This document shows positions 11,805 through 19,726 of a stretch of 64,000 bases of DNA, one piece after another (the stretch's first letter is position 1; each line of letters starts with the position of its first letter). Both the position numbers and the translations under genes were made by a program. Location of the stretch: the NCBI GenBank assembly GCA_903884655.1, contig CAISFO010000079.1, forward strand, positions 62,001-126,000, read 5' to 3'. The notes under the pieces are model-generated. The model made no database searches, was not told the DNA's origin, and was given only the letters and a program-made list of their open reading frames with translations. Source of the DNA: an uncultured Holophagaceae bacterium (GTDB taxonomy: Bacteria; Acidobacteriota; Holophagae; Holophagales; Holophagaceae).

Positions 11805-13394
11805 ATGGCTCTTTCAACACCTCCCCTGGCGAAGCTCTCGACTCAGCCACCTGTCCATCGGCAGGAGCTGTCCCCCATCTACTTTCTGGAGCGGGCGGGG
11901 GACATCTACGCCGAACGTCCGGCCGTCACGGATGGCGACCAGCGCTACACCTGGCGGGAATTCCGGGCGCGGGCCCGGCGGTTCGCCTCGGAGCTGCGGA
12001 CAGACGGCCTCAAGAAGGGCGACCGGGTGGCCTTCCTGGCCTTCAACTCGGAGCCACTCCTGCTGGCGCATTTCGCGGTCCCCATGGCCGGGGGCATCCT
12101 GGTGGCCATCAACACCCGCCTGAACCCCGAAGAGATCGCCTACATCATCAGCCACAGCGGCGCGACGCGAGTATTCGTGACGCCGGAACTGCTGCCCCAG
12201 CTTGGTGCCGTGCCCCCCACGGTGCAGCGCGTGGTGCTCGGCCCTGATTTCGAGGCATTGCTGGCCCGGGGCTCCGAAGCCCCCCTCGAACTGTGTCTGG
12301 TGAGCGAGGACGAACCCATCACCATCAACTACACGTCCGGCACCACCGGGCGGCCCAAGGGGGTGGTGTACCACCACCGGGGGGCCTACCTGAACGCACT
12401 GGCCATGATCCTCGATCACCGGGTCCAGGCGGAAAGCCGCTACCTGTGGACCCTGCCGATGTTCCACTGCAACGGCTGGTGCTTCACCTGGGGCCTGGCC
12501 GCCGTGGGTGCCGAGAGCGTCTGCATCCCCAAGATCGAGCCAGGGCCGACCTGGCAGCTGTTCGATGCGGGGGTGACCCACTTCTGTGCGGCCCCCACGG
12601 TCTGCACCATGCTGGTGGCCGACCCGGCCGCCCACCGCCTGGAACGGCCGGTGCGGCTGTTCACCGCCGGTGCGCCGCCTTCCCCGACCCTGATCGCCCG
12701 CATGGCCGATCTGAACTTCCAGCTGGACCATGTCTACGGCCTCACGGAAGTCTACGGACCGTTCACCATCAACGTGCCCAGCCCCGGAATGGGCGCTCTG
12801 CCCGCAGAGCAGCAGGCCCAGCTCCGGGCTCGCCAGGGCATGCCGAATGTCTGTGCGGGGGAAGTCCGCGTGGTGGACGACGCCATGAACGACGTGGCCA
12901 TGGATGGCGCCACCATGGGCGAGGTGGTCATGCGCGGCAATGTCGTCATGACCGGCTACTTCGAGGATGCCGAGGCCACCGACCGGGCCTTCTTTGGCGG
13001 CTGGTTCCATTCCGGCGATCTGGGCGTCCACCATCCGGACGGCTCCATCGAGCTGCGGGACCGGGCCAAGGACATCATCATCTCCGGCGGCGAGAACATC
13101 TCCACCATCGAGGTGGAACAGGCGGTGGTCTCGCACCCGGCGGTGATGGAGTGCGCGGTGATCGCGGTCCCCGACCCGAAGTGGGGCGAGGTGCCCAAGG
13201 CCTTCGTCACGCTCAAGCCCGGGGCCTCGGTCACCGCCGAAGAGCTGGTGGCCCACTGCCGCACCCGGCTCGCCAACTTCAAGCTGCCCCGGCACATTGA
13301 ATTCTGCGCCCTGCCGAAAACCTCGACCGGCAAGATCCAGAAATTCATGCTGCGGGACAAGGAGTGGAAGGGGCGGGACCGCCGCATCAACTGA
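11805..13394 (+). CDS. Acyl-CoA synthetase (AMP-binding, adenylate-forming)
   Basis: The 529-residue enzyme activates a carboxylic acid through an acyl-adenylate and ligates it to CoA. The P-loop YTSGTTGRPKG lies near residue 180, followed by the A5-type YGLTEVYGP, the GWFHSGDLG motif and the C-terminal catalytic lysine region KTSTGKIQK. The sequence around PMFHCNGWCFTW places it in the medium/long-chain or DmdB-like branch; the exact substrate cannot be read. ATG 11805 is preceded by GAGG at 8 bases; upstream open frame lacks family similarity. Its end overlaps the convergent endonuclease III fusion gene by 8 bases. Confidence 0.9.
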   Translation: MALSTPPLAKLSTQPPVHRQELSPIYFLERAGDIYAERPAVTDGDQRYTWREFRARARRFASELRTDGLKKGDRVAFLAFNSEPLLLAHFAVPMAGGILVAINTRLNPEEIAYIISHSGATRVFVTPELLPQLGAVPPTVQRVVLGPDFEALLARGSEAPLELCLVSEDEPITINYTSGTTGRPKGVVYHHRGAYLNALAMILDHRVQAESRYLWTLPMFHCNGWCFTWGLAAVGAESVCIPKIEPGPTWQLFDAGVTHFCAAPTVCTMLVADPAAHRLERPVRLFTAGAPPSPTLIARMADLNFQLDHVYGLTEVYGPFTINVPSPGMGALPAEQQAQLRARQGMPNVCAGEVRVVDDAMNDVAMDGATMGEVVMRGNVVMTGYFEDAEATDRAFFGGWFHSGDLGVHHPDGSIELRDRAKDIIISGGENISTIEVEQAVVSHPAVMECAVIAVPDPKWGEVPKAFVTLKPGASVTAEELVAHCRTRLANFKLPRHIEFCALPKTSTGKIQKFMLRDKEWKGRDRRIN

Positions 13395-14832
13395 TCGAAA
13401 GGGCCCTGACCAGCTCCAGGCCCTGCTCCGTCCTGCTCAGGTACCAGGTAAGCGCCTGTCCATCCACGAGGTGGACGGCGGCCTCCGGGCAGAGCCTCTG
13501 CAGTTCCGCCTGGTGGCGCCGATTGAACCGGTAGGGCTCGGTGGGGAGCAGGATGATCCGGGGATCCAGCGCCACCAGCGTTTCCTCTGACAGGGCCGGG
13601 TAGCGGTCCGGGCCAATGGGCGTGACGCCTCCCTGGCGCAGCAGGTCACCCACGTATGTATCCGGTCCGGCGCTCATCCAGGGCTCGCGCCAGACCAGGG
13701 CAAGGGCCCGCGGTCCCTTCCTGTGCCGCTTCTTCAGGGCCTTCTCAAGGGCGGTGGCCTGGACCTCGGCGGCCTCACCCACACCCAGGAGCTCCCCGAG
13801 GGAGCGAAGGGCGGCGATGCAGTCTTTCACGGTGCGGATCTCCAGGACCAGCCAGGGGATGCCCAGGGCCGTGAGGGCGTCGGCCACCGCTTCTGGGTTC
13901 TCGTCCTTCTCGAGGATCACCAGGTCCGGCGCCAGATCGCGAATGCGGCCCAGGTCTGGATCCTTGGTGCCACCCACGGCGGGCACGGTGTTCCGGATCC
14001 ACCTGGGCTCGATGCAGTACCGGCTGCGTCCAGCCAGCCGCGTGGCGAGCCCCCATTGCACCAGCAGTTCGGTGACCGAGGGGACCAGGCTCACGATTCG
14101 CTGGGGACCGGTGGTCGAGGGGGCCTGGGAACTGAAGGCCGACGCCGGGAGATCGGGTGCGCCTGTGATCAGCTTCACGCCCAGGTGCGGATCCTTCATC
14201 TTGCCGAGTCCCGTGGGACAGAGGTCCAGCAGGGTGCAGCCCGCGCAGTCAGGGCGCCGGGCATCGCAGACCCGGCGGCCGTGGAAGATGAGCTGATGGT
14301 GCAGCTCGATCCAGTCTTCCCGCGGGAAGAGGGCGCAGAGATCGGCTTCCACTTTCTCGGGTGTCGTGGCCTTGGACAGCCCCAGGCGGCGGGCCACGCG
14401 GAAGATGTGGGTGTCGACGGGCAGGGCGGGCACCCCGAAGGCGTTGGACAGGACCACGTTGGCGGTCTTCTGGCCCACGCCGGGCAGGGCGGTGAGGGTG
14501 GCGAGGTCGGCGGGCACCTGGCCGCCGTGCCGGGCCAGGAGGGCCTGGGCGAGGCCGATGAGGTTCTTGGCCTTGTTGTGGTAGAACCCCGTCGATTTGA
14601 TGAGGCCTTCCAGCTCGTCCAGGCGGGCCTGCGCGAGGCTGGCCGCATCGGGGAAGCGGGCGAAGAGCGCCGGGGTGGTGAGGTTGACCCGGGCGTCCGT
14701 GCACTGGGCGCTGAGGATGGTGGCCACCACCAGCTGGAAGGGATCCAGGTGGTCCAGGGCGCAGCGGGCGTCCGGGTAGGCGGCCCGGAGACGGGCCTGG
14801 AGCTGCGGGGCATCGGGCTTGGACAGGCGCAT
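13387..14832 (-). CDS. Endonuclease III fused to a BtuF-like helical-backbone metal receptor domain
   Basis: This is one uninterrupted 481-codon frame with two complete domains. Residues 1-215 are a full endonuclease III. They carry the helix-hairpin-helix LPGVGQKTANV with the catalytic Lys, VDTH with the catalytic Asp, and a CX6CX2CX5C cluster motif (CDARRPDC..C.....C). Residues about 245-481 match periplasmic cobalamin/Fe-siderophore-binding proteins (RIVSLVPSVTELLVQWGL, RSRYC, PDLVILEKDENP, WMSAGPDTYVGDLLRQGG). There is no signal peptide, so the receptor domain would be cytosolic. The first half excises oxidised pyrimidines; the second half's ligand is unknown. Base-excision activity is well supported, the combined role is not. 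Confidence 0.88.
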   Translation of the reverse strand: MRLSKPDAPQLQARLRAAYPDARCALDHLDPFQLVVATILSAQCTDARVNLTTPALFARFPDAASLAQARLDELEGLIKSTGFYHNKAKNLIGLAQALLARHGGQVPADLATLTALPGVGQKTANVVLSNAFGVPALPVDTHIFRVARRLGLSKATTPEKVEADLCALFPREDWIELHHQLIFHGRRVCDARRPDCAGCTLLDLCPTGLGKMKDPHLGVKLITGAPDLPASAFSSQAPSTTGPQRIVSLVPSVTELLVQWGLATRLAGRSRYCIEPRWIRNTVPAVGGTKDPDLGRIRDLAPDLVILEKDENPEAVADALTALGIPWLVLEIRTVKDCIAALRSLGELLGVGEAAEVQATALEKALKKRHRKGPRALALVWREPWMSAGPDTYVGDLLRQGGVTPIGPDRYPALSEETLVALDPRIILLPTEPYRFNRRHQAELQRLCPEAAVHLVDGQALTWYLSRTEQGLELVRALSIS

Positions 14833-14903: not shown

Positions 14904-15764
14904 ATGCCCACGACCTTCACGGGAAGGCTCGACTGCCAGGAAACGGCCCATCACTACCTGGAGCTGGTGCGGTCCAACGTGAAGAAGCTGGGCTTCTCGC
15001 CCGGCCTGGGCGTCATTCTCGGCAGCGGTGATGCCGGCAGCCTGACCTACCAGCGCTGGCTCATGAAGGACTGCGAAGACCTGGGCATCCACGCCACCGA
15101 CCTGCGGGTGGAGAACGGCATGCAGATCGTGAAGCTGCTGGCGCGCCTCAACCAGGACGAGAAGACCCACGGCATCTTCATCTTCTATCCCCTGCGCTAC
15201 GCCGAGATCAAGGATGACGAGGTGATGGACCTGGTGGATCCCGGCAAGGACATCGAGGGCCTGCACGCCATCAACATCGGGTTCCTGAACAAGTACCGGA
15301 AGCGCATGGACGATGGCACCCAGCACCGCTGCATGACCCCGTGCACCGCCCGGGCCATCGTGAAGACCCTGAAGCGGGGCTTCGGCGAGGGCTGGCTGGC
15401 GGGCAAGACCGTGCTGGTGATCAACGACAGCCTGCGCATCGGAAGGCCCCTCACCGCCATGGTGGCCAACCTCAAGGCCACGCCCATCCTCTGCCACCAG
15501 AACACCAACAAGGAGCACCTCGAAGGCTTCATCCGCATGGCCGATGTCATCGTCAGCGCCGTGCCCGCGCCGAACTACCAGATCAACACCGACTGGATCA
15601 AGGACGGCGCCCTCTGCTTCGACCTGAGCGGCGACGGCAACTTCGACTACGAAGCCCTGGACCGCCGGGGCATCCCCTACACCGACACCAACAAGAACAG
15701 CGTGGGCAAGGTCACCCGCGCCATGGCCCTGCTGAACCTGACCTACGCTGCGGGGCCGGGCTGA
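14904..15764 (+). CDS. Methylenetetrahydrofolate dehydrogenase, FolD family, MTD1-like
   Basis: The 286-residue protein has the FolD two-domain fold: a folate domain with SLTYQRWLMK and KDIEGLH, and a Rossmann domain with VLVINDSLRIGRPL and a C-terminal VGKVTRAMALLN. The residue four after the conserved Tyr, a catalytic Lys in bifunctional FolD, is Leu (YQRWL). The usual QLPLP reads FYPLR, and DVDG reads DIEG. These changes remove the cyclohydrolase-type residues and resemble the yeast monofunctional NAD-dependent dehydrogenase MTD1. It probably oxidises 5,10-methylene-THF only; NAD preference is inference. ATG 14904 is preceded by GAGG; a TAGACT -10-like box lies at 14881. Confidence 0.82.
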   Translation: MPTTFTGRLDCQETAHHYLELVRSNVKKLGFSPGLGVILGSGDAGSLTYQRWLMKDCEDLGIHATDLRVENGMQIVKLLARLNQDEKTHGIFIFYPLRYAEIKDDEVMDLVDPGKDIEGLHAINIGFLNKYRKRMDDGTQHRCMTPCTARAIVKTLKRGFGEGWLAGKTVLVINDSLRIGRPLTAMVANLKATPILCHQNTNKEHLEGFIRMADVIVSAVPAPNYQINTDWIKDGALCFDLSGDGNFDYEALDRRGIPYTDTNKNSVGKVTRAMALLNLTYAAGPG

Positions 15765-16214
15765 TCAGAACCGCGTGGTAAGGACAAGCCCCAGACTGCT
15801 GCGGCGCCGCACGGTGAGCCCTGGCGAGAAGGGACGCTCCAGGTGCTCCCCCTCCAGGCTGACGGCCCAGGCGGGGTGGAAGGCCCAGCCCATCCGCAGG
15901 CGGGGCCCCAGAAAGGCGCCCTCGCCGGGGGGCACTTCCACGATGGCCCCGATGCCCACGAACACGGCCTTGGCGGTGGCGTTGGCATCGGCCACGAAGC
16001 GGATGGCATTGTCGCCGTCGTCCCAGTGGCGGGCCCCCAGGCCGATGCCCAGGTGAAGGTGGGCGAAGTCCCCGCCCTCCCGCACCTGCAGCTCGGTGAT
16101 GGGCACGGTGAATTCGACGGCCGTGGCCCGGGGCTGACGGATCACCGACAGCAGGGTGGACTGGGCTGACAGGGGGAGGACGGACAGGGCAAGGAGGCAG
16201 AGGATTCGGCGCAT
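15765..16214 (-). CDS. Small exported beta-barrel-like protein
   Basis: The 149-residue protein has a Sec signal (RILCLLALSVLPLSAQS) and an all-beta pattern with repeated Gly and aromatic residues. It ends in TTRF, with the C-terminal Phe typical of outer-membrane barrels. It is too short for more than about eight strands. It abuts the FolD-family gene stop to stop with no gap. No family is recognised and no function is assigned. Confidence 0.68.
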   Translation of the reverse strand: MRRILCLLALSVLPLSAQSTLLSVIRQPRATAVEFTVPITELQVREGGDFAHLHLGIGLGARHWDDGDNAIRFVADANATAKAVFVGIGAIVEVPPGEGAFLGPRLRMGWAFHPAWAVSLEGEHLERPFSPGLTVRRRSSLGLVLTTRF

Positions 16215-16353: not shown

Positions 16354-17940
16354 GTGAAGATCAGTCGAAAACTGATGTGGGGCTTCAGCCTGGGAGGCGT
16401 GGCCCTGGTGTTCGTGGGAGGCATGGCCTATTACATGAATGCTGTCGCCATGAGCGAGAGCCGGCGCGTGATCGACGTCAATTCGAAGCTCGTGGAACAC
16501 GGCCAGCGCATGCGGGCCAACATCAACATGCTGCGCCGCTACGAGAAGGACCTGTTTCTGAACCTCGGCGATCCCGCAGCCATGGCCAAGTACCAGAAGA
16601 GCTGGACCGAGGCCCGGGAGCATGCGAAAAAGCGCATGGAGCAGCTGGCCCGGCTGGAGAGCGATCCCAAGCAGCAGGCCACCCTGGCGGAGATCAACAG
16701 CCAGCTGGAAGCCTACGCCAAGGGCTTTGCCGGCGTGGTGGCCCAGATCCAGTCCGGGGCGATCAAGACGCCCGTGGAGGCGAACCGCGGCATCGGCCAG
16801 TTCAAGGAAGCCACCCACAAGGCCGAGGCGGCCATCACCGCCTATGCCACCGATGAGGACCAGGCGATTGCCCGAGTGTTGAAGGATCTGGACGCGTCGA
16901 ACCGCCGGGGCCAGACGATCATGTCGGCCACGATGCTGCTCACCCTCGCCGGGCTGGGCGTGTTCGCGACCGCCCTCATCCGCTCCATCCGGACGCCCCT
17001 CAAGGACATCGCCCACCTGGTGACGGACATGGGCCAGGGGCAGGGGGACCTCACCCACAAGCTCGACTACCAGGGGAAGGACGAGCTCGGGGACATCTGC
17101 GAAGGCGTGAACCGGTTCGTCGAGAAGCTCCGGGGCATCATCTCGAATGTGGCGCGGACGACCGAACAGGTCGCCTCGGCGGCCCAGGAGCTCAGCGCCA
17201 CCGCCGAGGAGATCAACCAGACCACCACGGAGCTGAGCCAAAACGCCGAGCGCCAGCGCGAGGCCATGATCCGGTCCTCGTCGGCCCTGGAGCAGATCTC
17301 GGCCTCCATCACCCAGGTGGGAACCGCCGCCAGCGAAACCGAGACCATCGCCAAGGGGTCGCTGGACCTGGCGGCCCAGGGCAGCGCGGCGGCACAGGAA
17401 AGCACCCACGCCATGGATGCCATCAAGGAATCCTCGGGGAAGGTGAACCGCATCACCGGTGTCATCGCCGACATCGCCCGCCAGACGAACCTCCTGTCCC
17501 TGAATGCCGCCATCGAGGCGGCGAAGGCCGGGGCCCAGGGCAAGGGCTTCGCCGTGGTGGCGGAGGAGATCCGCAAGCTGGCGGAGCGCAGCTCGACCGC
17601 GGCCAAGGAGATCTCGGTGCTGATCACGGAGAGCACGGATCGGGTGGAGATGGGGGTCGAGTCCGTCGGCCGGGTCGGGCGAAGGCTAACTTCCATCGAC
17701 GAAGCCACCCGGGACAGCACCAGCCGCATCCAGGGGATCTCTCTGGCGATGGAGGAGCAGTCGAAGGCCAGCCAGGAGATGGTCGCCGCCGTGAGCGTCA
17801 CCACCCAGATCTCCGAGCAGACGGCGGGGGCTTCCACCGAGCTCTCCTCCACCATCCAGGAGGTGGCCCGCACCATTGAGGAGCTGGCCCGGGTGGCCCA
17901 CGACCTGCGTGCCCAGACCGGCCAGTTCAAGCTCGCCTGA
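16354..17940 (+). CDS. Methyl-accepting chemotaxis protein (first of a tandem pair)
   Basis: The 528-residue chemoreceptor starts with GTG 16354 (GAGG six bases upstream). It has a membrane helix (about residues 9-28), a periplasmic four-helix-bundle sensor with [20 protein letters not shown], a second membrane helix (about 188-210) and a HAMP domain. The long signalling coiled coil carries the conserved tip [20 protein letters not shown] and [17 protein letters not shown]. It signals to CheA/CheW; the ligand is unknown. There is no CheR-binding pentapeptide at the C terminus (ends QFKLA). It is close in length and sequence to the next gene, so the pair arose by duplication. Confidence 0.93.
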
Positions 17941-18139
17941 TCGGTCTCTCGCTGGCAGGCAGTCCCTGGACCATGTGGCCCACAGGGCTTCCGCCCGAGG
18001 GTAAGGAGGAAATTCTGGGCGAGGAATCTTGAAAAAAATATCGACAGGGGTTGCCAGGATGCAAACAAATTCGTGCAATGGACGATCCATCCACCAGCAC
18101 GAAAGATAAACGACCTAACCGGTGTTATTGAGGAAGCCC

Positions 18140-19726
18140 ATGAGAATCAGATACAAGCTAAGGATTGGTTTTGGTGTGAGCGCCCTGGTGATCGCTCTGG
18201 TGGGGGGCTTCGGGGTGTATGAAACCCATACGATCTCGACGGCCAGCAACGAGGCCATCAACGTGGGGATGAAACTGGTGGAGCACTCCCAGCGCATGCG
18301 GGCCAACATCAACATGATGCGCCGCTATGAGAAGGACCTGTTCCTGAACCTGGGCGATGGCGAGAGCATCGACAAGTACGAGAAATCCTGGGAGGAGGCC
18401 CGAGCCCACGCCAAGCAGCGCATGGAGCAGATGGGCAAGCTCGTGGACGAGCCCAAGCACAAGGAGACACTGGCGACCATCAACCGCAACCTCGATGCGT
18501 ATGCCATAGGTTTTGCCTCCGTCGTCGCGCGAATCCGATCGAAGGTCATCACCACGCCCGCCGAGGCCAACCGGGCCGTCGCCGAGTTCAAGGCGCCCAC
18601 CCACAAGGCCGAGGCCGACATTGCGGCCTATGCCGCGAAAAATGACGAGGAAACCGCTCGGGGGATGACGGAATTGAACGCCGGGACCCGACGCAGCCAG
18701 ATCCTCCTGGCCATGTTCTCCCTCATCGCCTTTCTGGGCATGGGCGGCTTCGCCCTGATCCTCGTCCACACCATCCGGGGGCCATTGGAGGATATCGAGG
18801 CCCTCGTGGTCGACATGGGCCAGGGCGAAGGCGATCTGAGCAGGCGACTCAGCTATCGGGGGAACGACGAGCTGGGCGCCATCTGCGGGGGCGTGAACCA
18901 GTTCGTGGAGAAACTCAACCACACCATTGCCCAGGTGGCCCAGACCGCTGAGCAGGTGGCCTCCGCCGCCCACGAGCTCAGCGCCACAGCCGAACAGATC
19001 AACCAGACGACCACGGAGCTGAGCAACAGCGCAGAGCGGCAGCGGGTAGCCATGACCCAGTCTTCTTCCGCACTGGAGCAGATGTCCGCGTCCATCCGCC
19101 AGGTTCGCACGGCCGCACAGGAAGCGGAGGGCGTCGCGGAAGGGTCCTTGAACATGACGGCCCAGGGCTCGGCGGCGGCCGAGGAAAGCAACCAGGCCAT
19201 GGATGGCATCAAGGAATCCTCCAGCAAGGTGAACCGAATCACCAGTGTCATTGCCGACATCGCCCGGCAGACCAACCTCTTGTCCCTGAATGCCGCCATC
19301 GAAGCCGCCAAGGCCGGGGCTCAGGGCAAGGGCTTCGCGGTGGTGGCCGAGGAAGTCAGGAAGCTCGCCGAGCGCAGCGGCAACGCCGCAAAGGAAATCT
19401 CCACCCTGATCCAGGAGAGCGGCGAGCGCGTGGAGATGGGGGTCAGCTCCGTGGGCAGCGTGGGGCGCAGCCTCGCCTCCATCGAGACCTCCACCCGGGA
19501 CAACACGGACCGCATTCGCGGGATCTCCCGGGCCATGGAAGAGCAGGCCCACGCCAGCCAGGAGATGGTGGCCGCCGTGGGGACCACGGCCGAGATCACC
19601 GAGCAGAATGCCAGCGCCACGAACCAGCTGGCCTCCACCATCCATGAAGTGGCGCGCACGATTGAAGAGCTCGCCCGGGTCGCCAATCAGCTCAAGGGCC
19701 AGACGGCCAAGTTCAAGCTGGCTTGA
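18140..19726 (+). CDS. Methyl-accepting chemotaxis protein (second of a tandem pair)
   Basis: This chemoreceptor has the same length (528 residues) and domain order as the gene before it. The sensor-helix motif [20 protein letters not shown] and the signalling hairpin are nearly identical, while the rest of the periplasmic domain has diverged. It also ends in KFKLA without a pentapeptide tether. ATG 18140 was chosen for the upstream GAGGA; a GTG six codons earlier is less likely. The 199-base gap before it contains an AT-rich patch at 18030-18075, so it may have its own promoter. Its stop overlaps the convergent GNAT gene by 14 bases. Confidence 0.93.

Follow-up and report, generated by a model that had tools for sequence, protein, structure and literature searches.

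Among the closest known relatives of the protein considered here are the bifunctional FolD/MTHFD enzymes and yeast MTD1 (PDB 1edz/1ee9), an NAD-dependent methylenetetrahydrofolate dehydrogenase according to its PDB title; the text of PMC11064299 credits MTD1 with "only cyclohydrolase function", which contradicts the dehydrogenase titles cited in the same article. In Escherichia coli FolD, cyclohydrolase activity is undetectable both in the K54N mutant, which keeps around 19% of its dehydrogenase activity, and after deletion of K54-R55, whilst Q98H retains about 8% of dehydrogenase and about 1% of cyclohydrolase activity; cyclohydrolysis can also occur spontaneously, according to the authors of that work (PMC5688156). 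Among mutants of the Bombyx MTHFD, Y49A is reported to lose activity and D120A to show no measurable use of methylene-THF, whilst K53A retains the dehydrogenase (PMC6443876). In the human enzymes, Arg201 and the position occupied by Ser197 or Arg233 bind the 2'-phosphate of NADP or Pi, and govern the choice between NADP and NAD (PMC9173628).

Within the window, a stretch of 64,000 nucleotides from an uncultured member of the Holophagaceae, the reading frame at 14904..15764 on the forward strand is open and encodes 286 amino acids followed by a stop codon. Pfam matches, alignment and an AlphaFold2 model identify the product as a FolD-family protein without the cyclohydrolase residues (MTD1-type), and it is probably an NAD-linked, dehydrogenase-only member of the FolD/MTHFD family that would convert 5,10-methylene-THF to 5,10-methenyl-THF by oxidation. 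A preliminary description of this DNA had proposed that the cyclohydrolase was lost and the dehydrogenase kept, as in the NAD-dependent monofunctional type; the sequence and the published mutants of other FolDs support this proposal, with a shift towards NAD being likely.

Family membership and active site residues

The protein belongs to the FolD/MTHFD superfamily (PF00763 and PF02882), as both domains exceed their Pfam cut-offs: THF_DHG_CYH with 67.5 bits against 32.8, and THF_DHG_CYH_C with 73.3 bits against 27. The top NCBIfam model is a bifunctional FolD, matched with 119 bits against a cut-off of 401; this cut-off is a weak test, given that the FolD of the same genome fails its own top model (379.6 against 396) and passes others. 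Relatives from the Elusimicrobia and Desulfuromonadales also best match bifunctional FolD models at scores far below the cut-off, and genes of this kind are consequently prone to be named FolD.

The AlphaFold2 model, based on a 29-row alignment, has a mean pLDDT of 90, with lower values for residues 121-140 (block means of 70 and 61), and superposes on solved FolD/MTHFD structures with a top Z of 33.3. Since the match to yeast MTD1 (1edz; Z 32.5 over 274 residues, rmsd 2.2) ties with the top match by the rule of the tool used, the fold favours neither FolD nor MTD1. A profile from a wide alignment, which includes yeast-like bacterial proteins, preferred 1edz (227 versus 139 bits), and one built from Holophagaceae sequences only had no preference between the FolD and MTD1 structures (101.2 and 100.7 bits). 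The protein and 1edz differ from FolD in the lengths of the same two segments. The loop between E118 and PCT comprises 27-28 residues compared with 19-20 in 11 of 16 FolDs, the other five having a longer loop as well (25-27 residues), and the stretch before GNF comprises 6 residues compared with 13-36 in FolDs.

For the analysis of individual residues the protein was aligned with the FolD of its own genome, other FolDs and yeast MTD1, and columns were counted over 55 rows, comprised of 54 Holophagaceae homologues extracted from the named genomes and the protein itself, with at most two rows gapped per site. In the YxxxK motif (Tyr49..Leu53; 15048..15062, forward strand) Tyr49 is retained and Leu replaces the catalytic Lys, which is K54 in E. 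coli and K56 in human. The QLPL motif is present as Phe94-Tyr95-Pro96-Leu97 (15183..15194, forward strand), with Phe in place of Gln, and in KDIEG (residues 115-119; 15246..15260, forward strand) Glu118 replaces the pterin-binding Asp of KDVDG. The alignment thus agrees with the preliminary description, which had noted Leu at the Lys four residues after the Tyr, FYPLR for QLPLP and DIEG for DVDG. Leu53, Phe94 and Glu118 were each found in 54/54 Holophagaceae sequences covering the site, the remaining row being a gap, and chance substitution within a single genome or a sequencing slip was rejected on account of this fixation. Lys, Gln, Asp, Gly and Arg occupy these three sites and those of Asn174 and Asp175 in Holophagaceae FolDs, each in 6/6.

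Two features by which a bifunctional FolD is recognised, the catalytic Lys and the Gln of QLPLP which positions it, are hence absent, and both are replaced, as in the MTD1 type. The catalytic Lys column contains Ile in 5/5 Elusimicrobia relatives and Thr in yeast MTD1 and 5/5 Desulfuromonadales/Myxococcales relatives; at the Gln of QLPLP yeast MTD1 has Tyr. Nor does the alignment suggest that a Lys is supplied from elsewhere near the helix. Lys55 (Lys in 50 and Arg in four of the 55 Holophagaceae rows) was considered as a substitute and rejected, as it lies in the same helix two positions further on, and some FolDs with the catalytic Lys have it as well.

The link to MTD1 that had been drawn from a DVEG-type motif fared less well. 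Glu is found in the DxDG motif of 5/5 Elusimicrobia FolDs which bear the catalytic Lys, so this residue is not diagnostic of dehydrogenase-only enzymes; DIEG was rejected as an MTD1 marker, the motif being insufficient by itself. An Ala following PCT is, like Glu118, also present in Lys-bearing Elusimicrobia FolDs. As the Elusimicrobia FolDs share Glu118 and this Ala and deviate at Gln, the boundary between the groups is blurrier than first assumed. The second FolDs of the Elusimicrobia (L131-L135) keep the Lys and have the Gln of QLPLP replaced by Asp, Glu or Val, and these unusual active sites occur in genomes which also encode a dehydrogenase-only relative.

Host genome, distribution and phylogeny

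The host is a Geothrix-type acidobacterium, represented by a 3.92-Mb draft in 98 contigs that is 93.6% complete. Searching this genome with PF00763 recovered two genes, the FolD-like gene and a FolD at C20:26777 with the canonical Lys, Gln and Asp; a formate-THF ligase and a formiminotransferase-cyclodeaminase (FTCD, named from an FTCD_C match and its N-terminal sequence) are also encoded. It had been expected that the bacterium would need another cyclohydrolase or a different one-carbon route. The ordinary FolD, together with the ligase and FTCD, bears out the first half of this expectation, and the other half is not supported as stated; a host without cyclohydrolase was rejected on account of the FolD.

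Across the family, for which the 77 genomes sampled are identical to those of the order, the FolD-like gene was found in 63 at E <= 1e-30 (42/48 good genomes; 9/11 genera), with a FolD match alongside it in 57 of these 63. In the remaining six, all of them drafts, the PF00763 search found the FolD-like gene and no FolD; these would lack any known FolD cyclohydrolase if nothing is missing from the drafts, and as one is 95% complete in 40 contigs, a genome may carry the FolD-like gene without FolD. All seven single-contig Holophagaceae genomes with the FolD-like gene also have FolD, and a further one, of genus g3, has FolD without the FolD-like gene. Over the Acidobacteriota as a whole, 36/396 genomes gave matches at E < 1e-150, every one in the Holophagaceae; 16 genomes with matches at 7.7e-37 to 9.8e-31, one of which (G247) spans residues 40-284, were counted as FolD background by score.

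A scan of named genomes recovered Holophagaceae including Geothrix fermentans, G. limicola, G. campi, G. rubra and G. terrae, four Elusimicrobia and one further relative at 38-41% identity, and five Desulfuromonadales/Myxococcales proteins at 28-31%. Two sequences titled Deltaproteobacteria and Bacillota (L103 and L108) have a Holophagaceae-type gene (69% and 68%) together with its neighbour, and are probably mislabelled bins. Outside the Holophagaceae, the gene is present in 10/198 Elusimicrobiota genomes, with the centre genome included and 11 others at E 1e-49 to 1e-45 counted as FolD by score; at E <= 1e-60, relatives were found in 1/282 Myxococcota and 2/297 genomes of the phylum of L122, again with the centre genome included in each. 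A second FolD-family gene is carried by 9/10 non-Holophagaceae genomes. The paralogue is widespread within one bacterial family and turns up again in a second phylum.

The divergent neighbour (13387..14832, reverse strand) encodes a fusion of an endonuclease III-type HhH-GPD domain with a domain of the periplasmic-binding type (Peripla_BP_2), with 71 bases separating its start from that of the FolD-like gene. It is found in 38 of 47 Holophagaceae loci having at least 600 upstream bases, and four more have an overlapping longer open frame. Downstream lie a gene for a Pfam-negative protein of 149 amino acids (15765-16214, reverse strand), which is conserved in several Geothrix loci, and tandem genes for similar methyl-accepting chemotaxis proteins (16354-17940 and 18122-19726, forward strand), the first assigned by Pfam and the second by likeness. 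The Elusimicrobia neighbours, named by eye, include response-regulator-like and citrate-synthase-like genes. An operon clue to function was rejected for now, there being no folate gene common to the Holophagaceae and Elusimicrobia neighbourhoods. A search of the whole window against Rfam at the gathering threshold gave zero matches.

The phylogenetic tree was based on 46 rows: 19 Holophagaceae, five Elusimicrobia and five Desulfuromonadales/Myxococcales proteins, 16 FolDs, and yeast MTD1 as the sole fungal row. A single clade (support 98/96) unites the Holophagaceae and Elusimicrobia proteins, yeast MTD1 groups with the proteins of the Desulfuromonadales/Myxococcales (100/99), and the FolDs all fall on one side (100/99). 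Being unrooted, the tree gives no order for its three groups, and long branches meet in it. Alternative topologies in which the Holophagaceae/Elusimicrobia set was grouped with the FolDs of the family or with those of the Elusimicrobia were rejected (p 0.0003 and p 0.0015, respectively). The groups were unchanged after dropping yeast and two long FolDs; tested apart, the MTD groups attach next to a long Campylobacter FolD row. In this tree the protein is not grouped with yeast MTD1 and sits in its own clade with the Elusimicrobia; the analogy with MTD1 made in the preliminary description may reflect likeness rather than descent. The Desulfuromonadales and Myxococcales proteins (L122-L126), which are MTD1-like and group with the yeast protein, are possibly the bacterial kin of fungal MTD1.

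Cofactor choice and the proposed reaction

At the cofactor site Asn174-Asp175-Ser176 (15423..15431, forward strand) replaces Gly-Arg-Ser, so that Asp175 takes the place of the Arg responsible for binding the 2'-phosphate of NADP or Pi (PMC9173628). Asn174 and Asp175 are each present in 55/55 Holophagaceae rows, and Arg is found at the latter site in 6/6 Holophagaceae FolDs. Gln199 (15498..15500, forward strand) aligns with Ser197 of human MTHFD1 and Arg233 of MTHFD2, a position which contributes to cofactor choice (PMC9173628); the 55 Holophagaceae rows have 39 Ala, 11 Gln, three His, one Leu and one Arg here and never Ser, the residue of 6/6 Holophagaceae FolDs. In the Elusimicrobia relatives Asn stands at the Arg site (NNS) and Asp at position 199 (5/5), and with different residues at both places the two lineages would have lost the phosphate site differently. 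The dehydrogenase domain, previously described as intact, is so as regards its fold and conserved core, but not its cofactor site, which is unlike that of FolD (GRS to NDS, HS to HQ or HA).

As both known ligands of the 2'-phosphate are replaced, one by Asp in every row and the other mostly by Ala or Gln, NAD is favoured and is likely to be the cofactor rather than NADP. There is some precedent for a dehydrogenase-only enzyme that uses NADP, a monofunctional NADP-dependent bacterial enzyme being cited in PMC6443876, and Arg178, which is conserved in 55/55 Holophagaceae and common to the Elusimicrobia relatives, could in principle give a new phosphate contact; with both known ligands gone and an acidic residue in place of one of them, however, use of NADP is unlikely.

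The substrate would still be methylene-THF, in view of the retained Tyr49, Pro96 and Thr148 and the carboxylate at position 118. Because a substitution at Gln98 leaves E. coli FolD with about 8% of its dehydrogenase activity, the Phe at this site must be compensated. There is the possibility, which we consider improbable, that a different reduced pterin or other compound is the substrate: the changes from Gln to Phe and Asp to Glu alter the pterin pocket, and no neighbouring pathway gene is indicative of folate, but the four residues above are retained and matching substitutions are carried by yeast MTD1, a methylene-THF dehydrogenase (NAD) by its PDB title. That the paralogue is catalytically dead or regulatory, as the loss of several FolD catalytic residues might imply, is very unlikely. 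Its identity between genera is close to the level of FolD (69.9% versus 73.2%, and 69.0% versus 53.2%) and dN is far below dS, with values of 0.045-0.26 and 0.29-1.2, respectively, in 13/14 pairs formed with the FolD-like gene of the window, the 14th being without a dS estimate; the gene is under purifying selection. Hardly any weight can be given to a back-up dehydrogenase that is not inhibited by carolacton, an inhibitor of FolD, for although the residual dehydrogenase of E. coli FolD K54N is fully insensitive (PMC5688156) and the Lys is absent here, relatives are rare in the Myxococcota, the phylum of the producer, where the single positive is the centre genome itself, and no resistance gene was noticed adjoining the FolD-like gene.

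With an NAD-linked methylene-THF dehydrogenase, the methenyl product would be handed to the cyclohydrolase of FolD or hydrolysed spontaneously, and the cell would gain an NADH-linked route beside the NADP-type route of FolD. A possible use would be the oxidation of one-carbon units derived from serine or glycine to 10-formyl-THF and then, via formate-THF ligase, to formate. If NAD-linked, the enzyme would give the bacterium a eukaryote-like division of folate oxidation between NAD and NADP without compartments, and provide a natural test of how a cyclohydrolase gets lost. Only tentatively, and with considerable doubt, can a wider picture be proposed, of an old bacterial dehydrogenase-only family with at least two clades: that of the Holophagaceae and some Elusimicrobiota would use NAD by virtue of Asp or Asn at the NADP-phosphate Arg, that of the Desulfuromonadales and Myxococcales would be kin to fungal MTD1 and may mark its origin, and in the Holophagaceae methylene-THF would be oxidised within a single cytoplasm by two enzymes with separate redox coupling.

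Comparison with known systems

With bifunctional FolD, as represented by E. coli FolD, the DC domain of human MTHFD1 and the FolD of the same genome, the protein shares the fold, both Pfam domains, Tyr49 and the carboxylate at 118, but not the Lys, the Gln or the GRS/HS cofactor motif. The MTD-like proteins of the Elusimicrobiota (L116-L119 and L121) are 38-41% identical to it, belong to one clade with it and have Arg178 in common, and differ in having Ile for the Lys, Leu or Met for the Gln, NNS, and Asp at 199. Yeast MTD1 resembles it in the replacement of the FolD Lys and Gln, DxEG, the AVP/GVP motif, the longer loop before PCT, the shorter stretch before NF and GKVT near the C-terminus. 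However, identity to the yeast protein is around 28%, the replacing residues are Leu and Phe rather than Thr and Tyr, NDS stands where yeast has NRS, and the two fall in different clades, one with the Elusimicrobia and the other with the Desulfuromonadales and Myxococcales.
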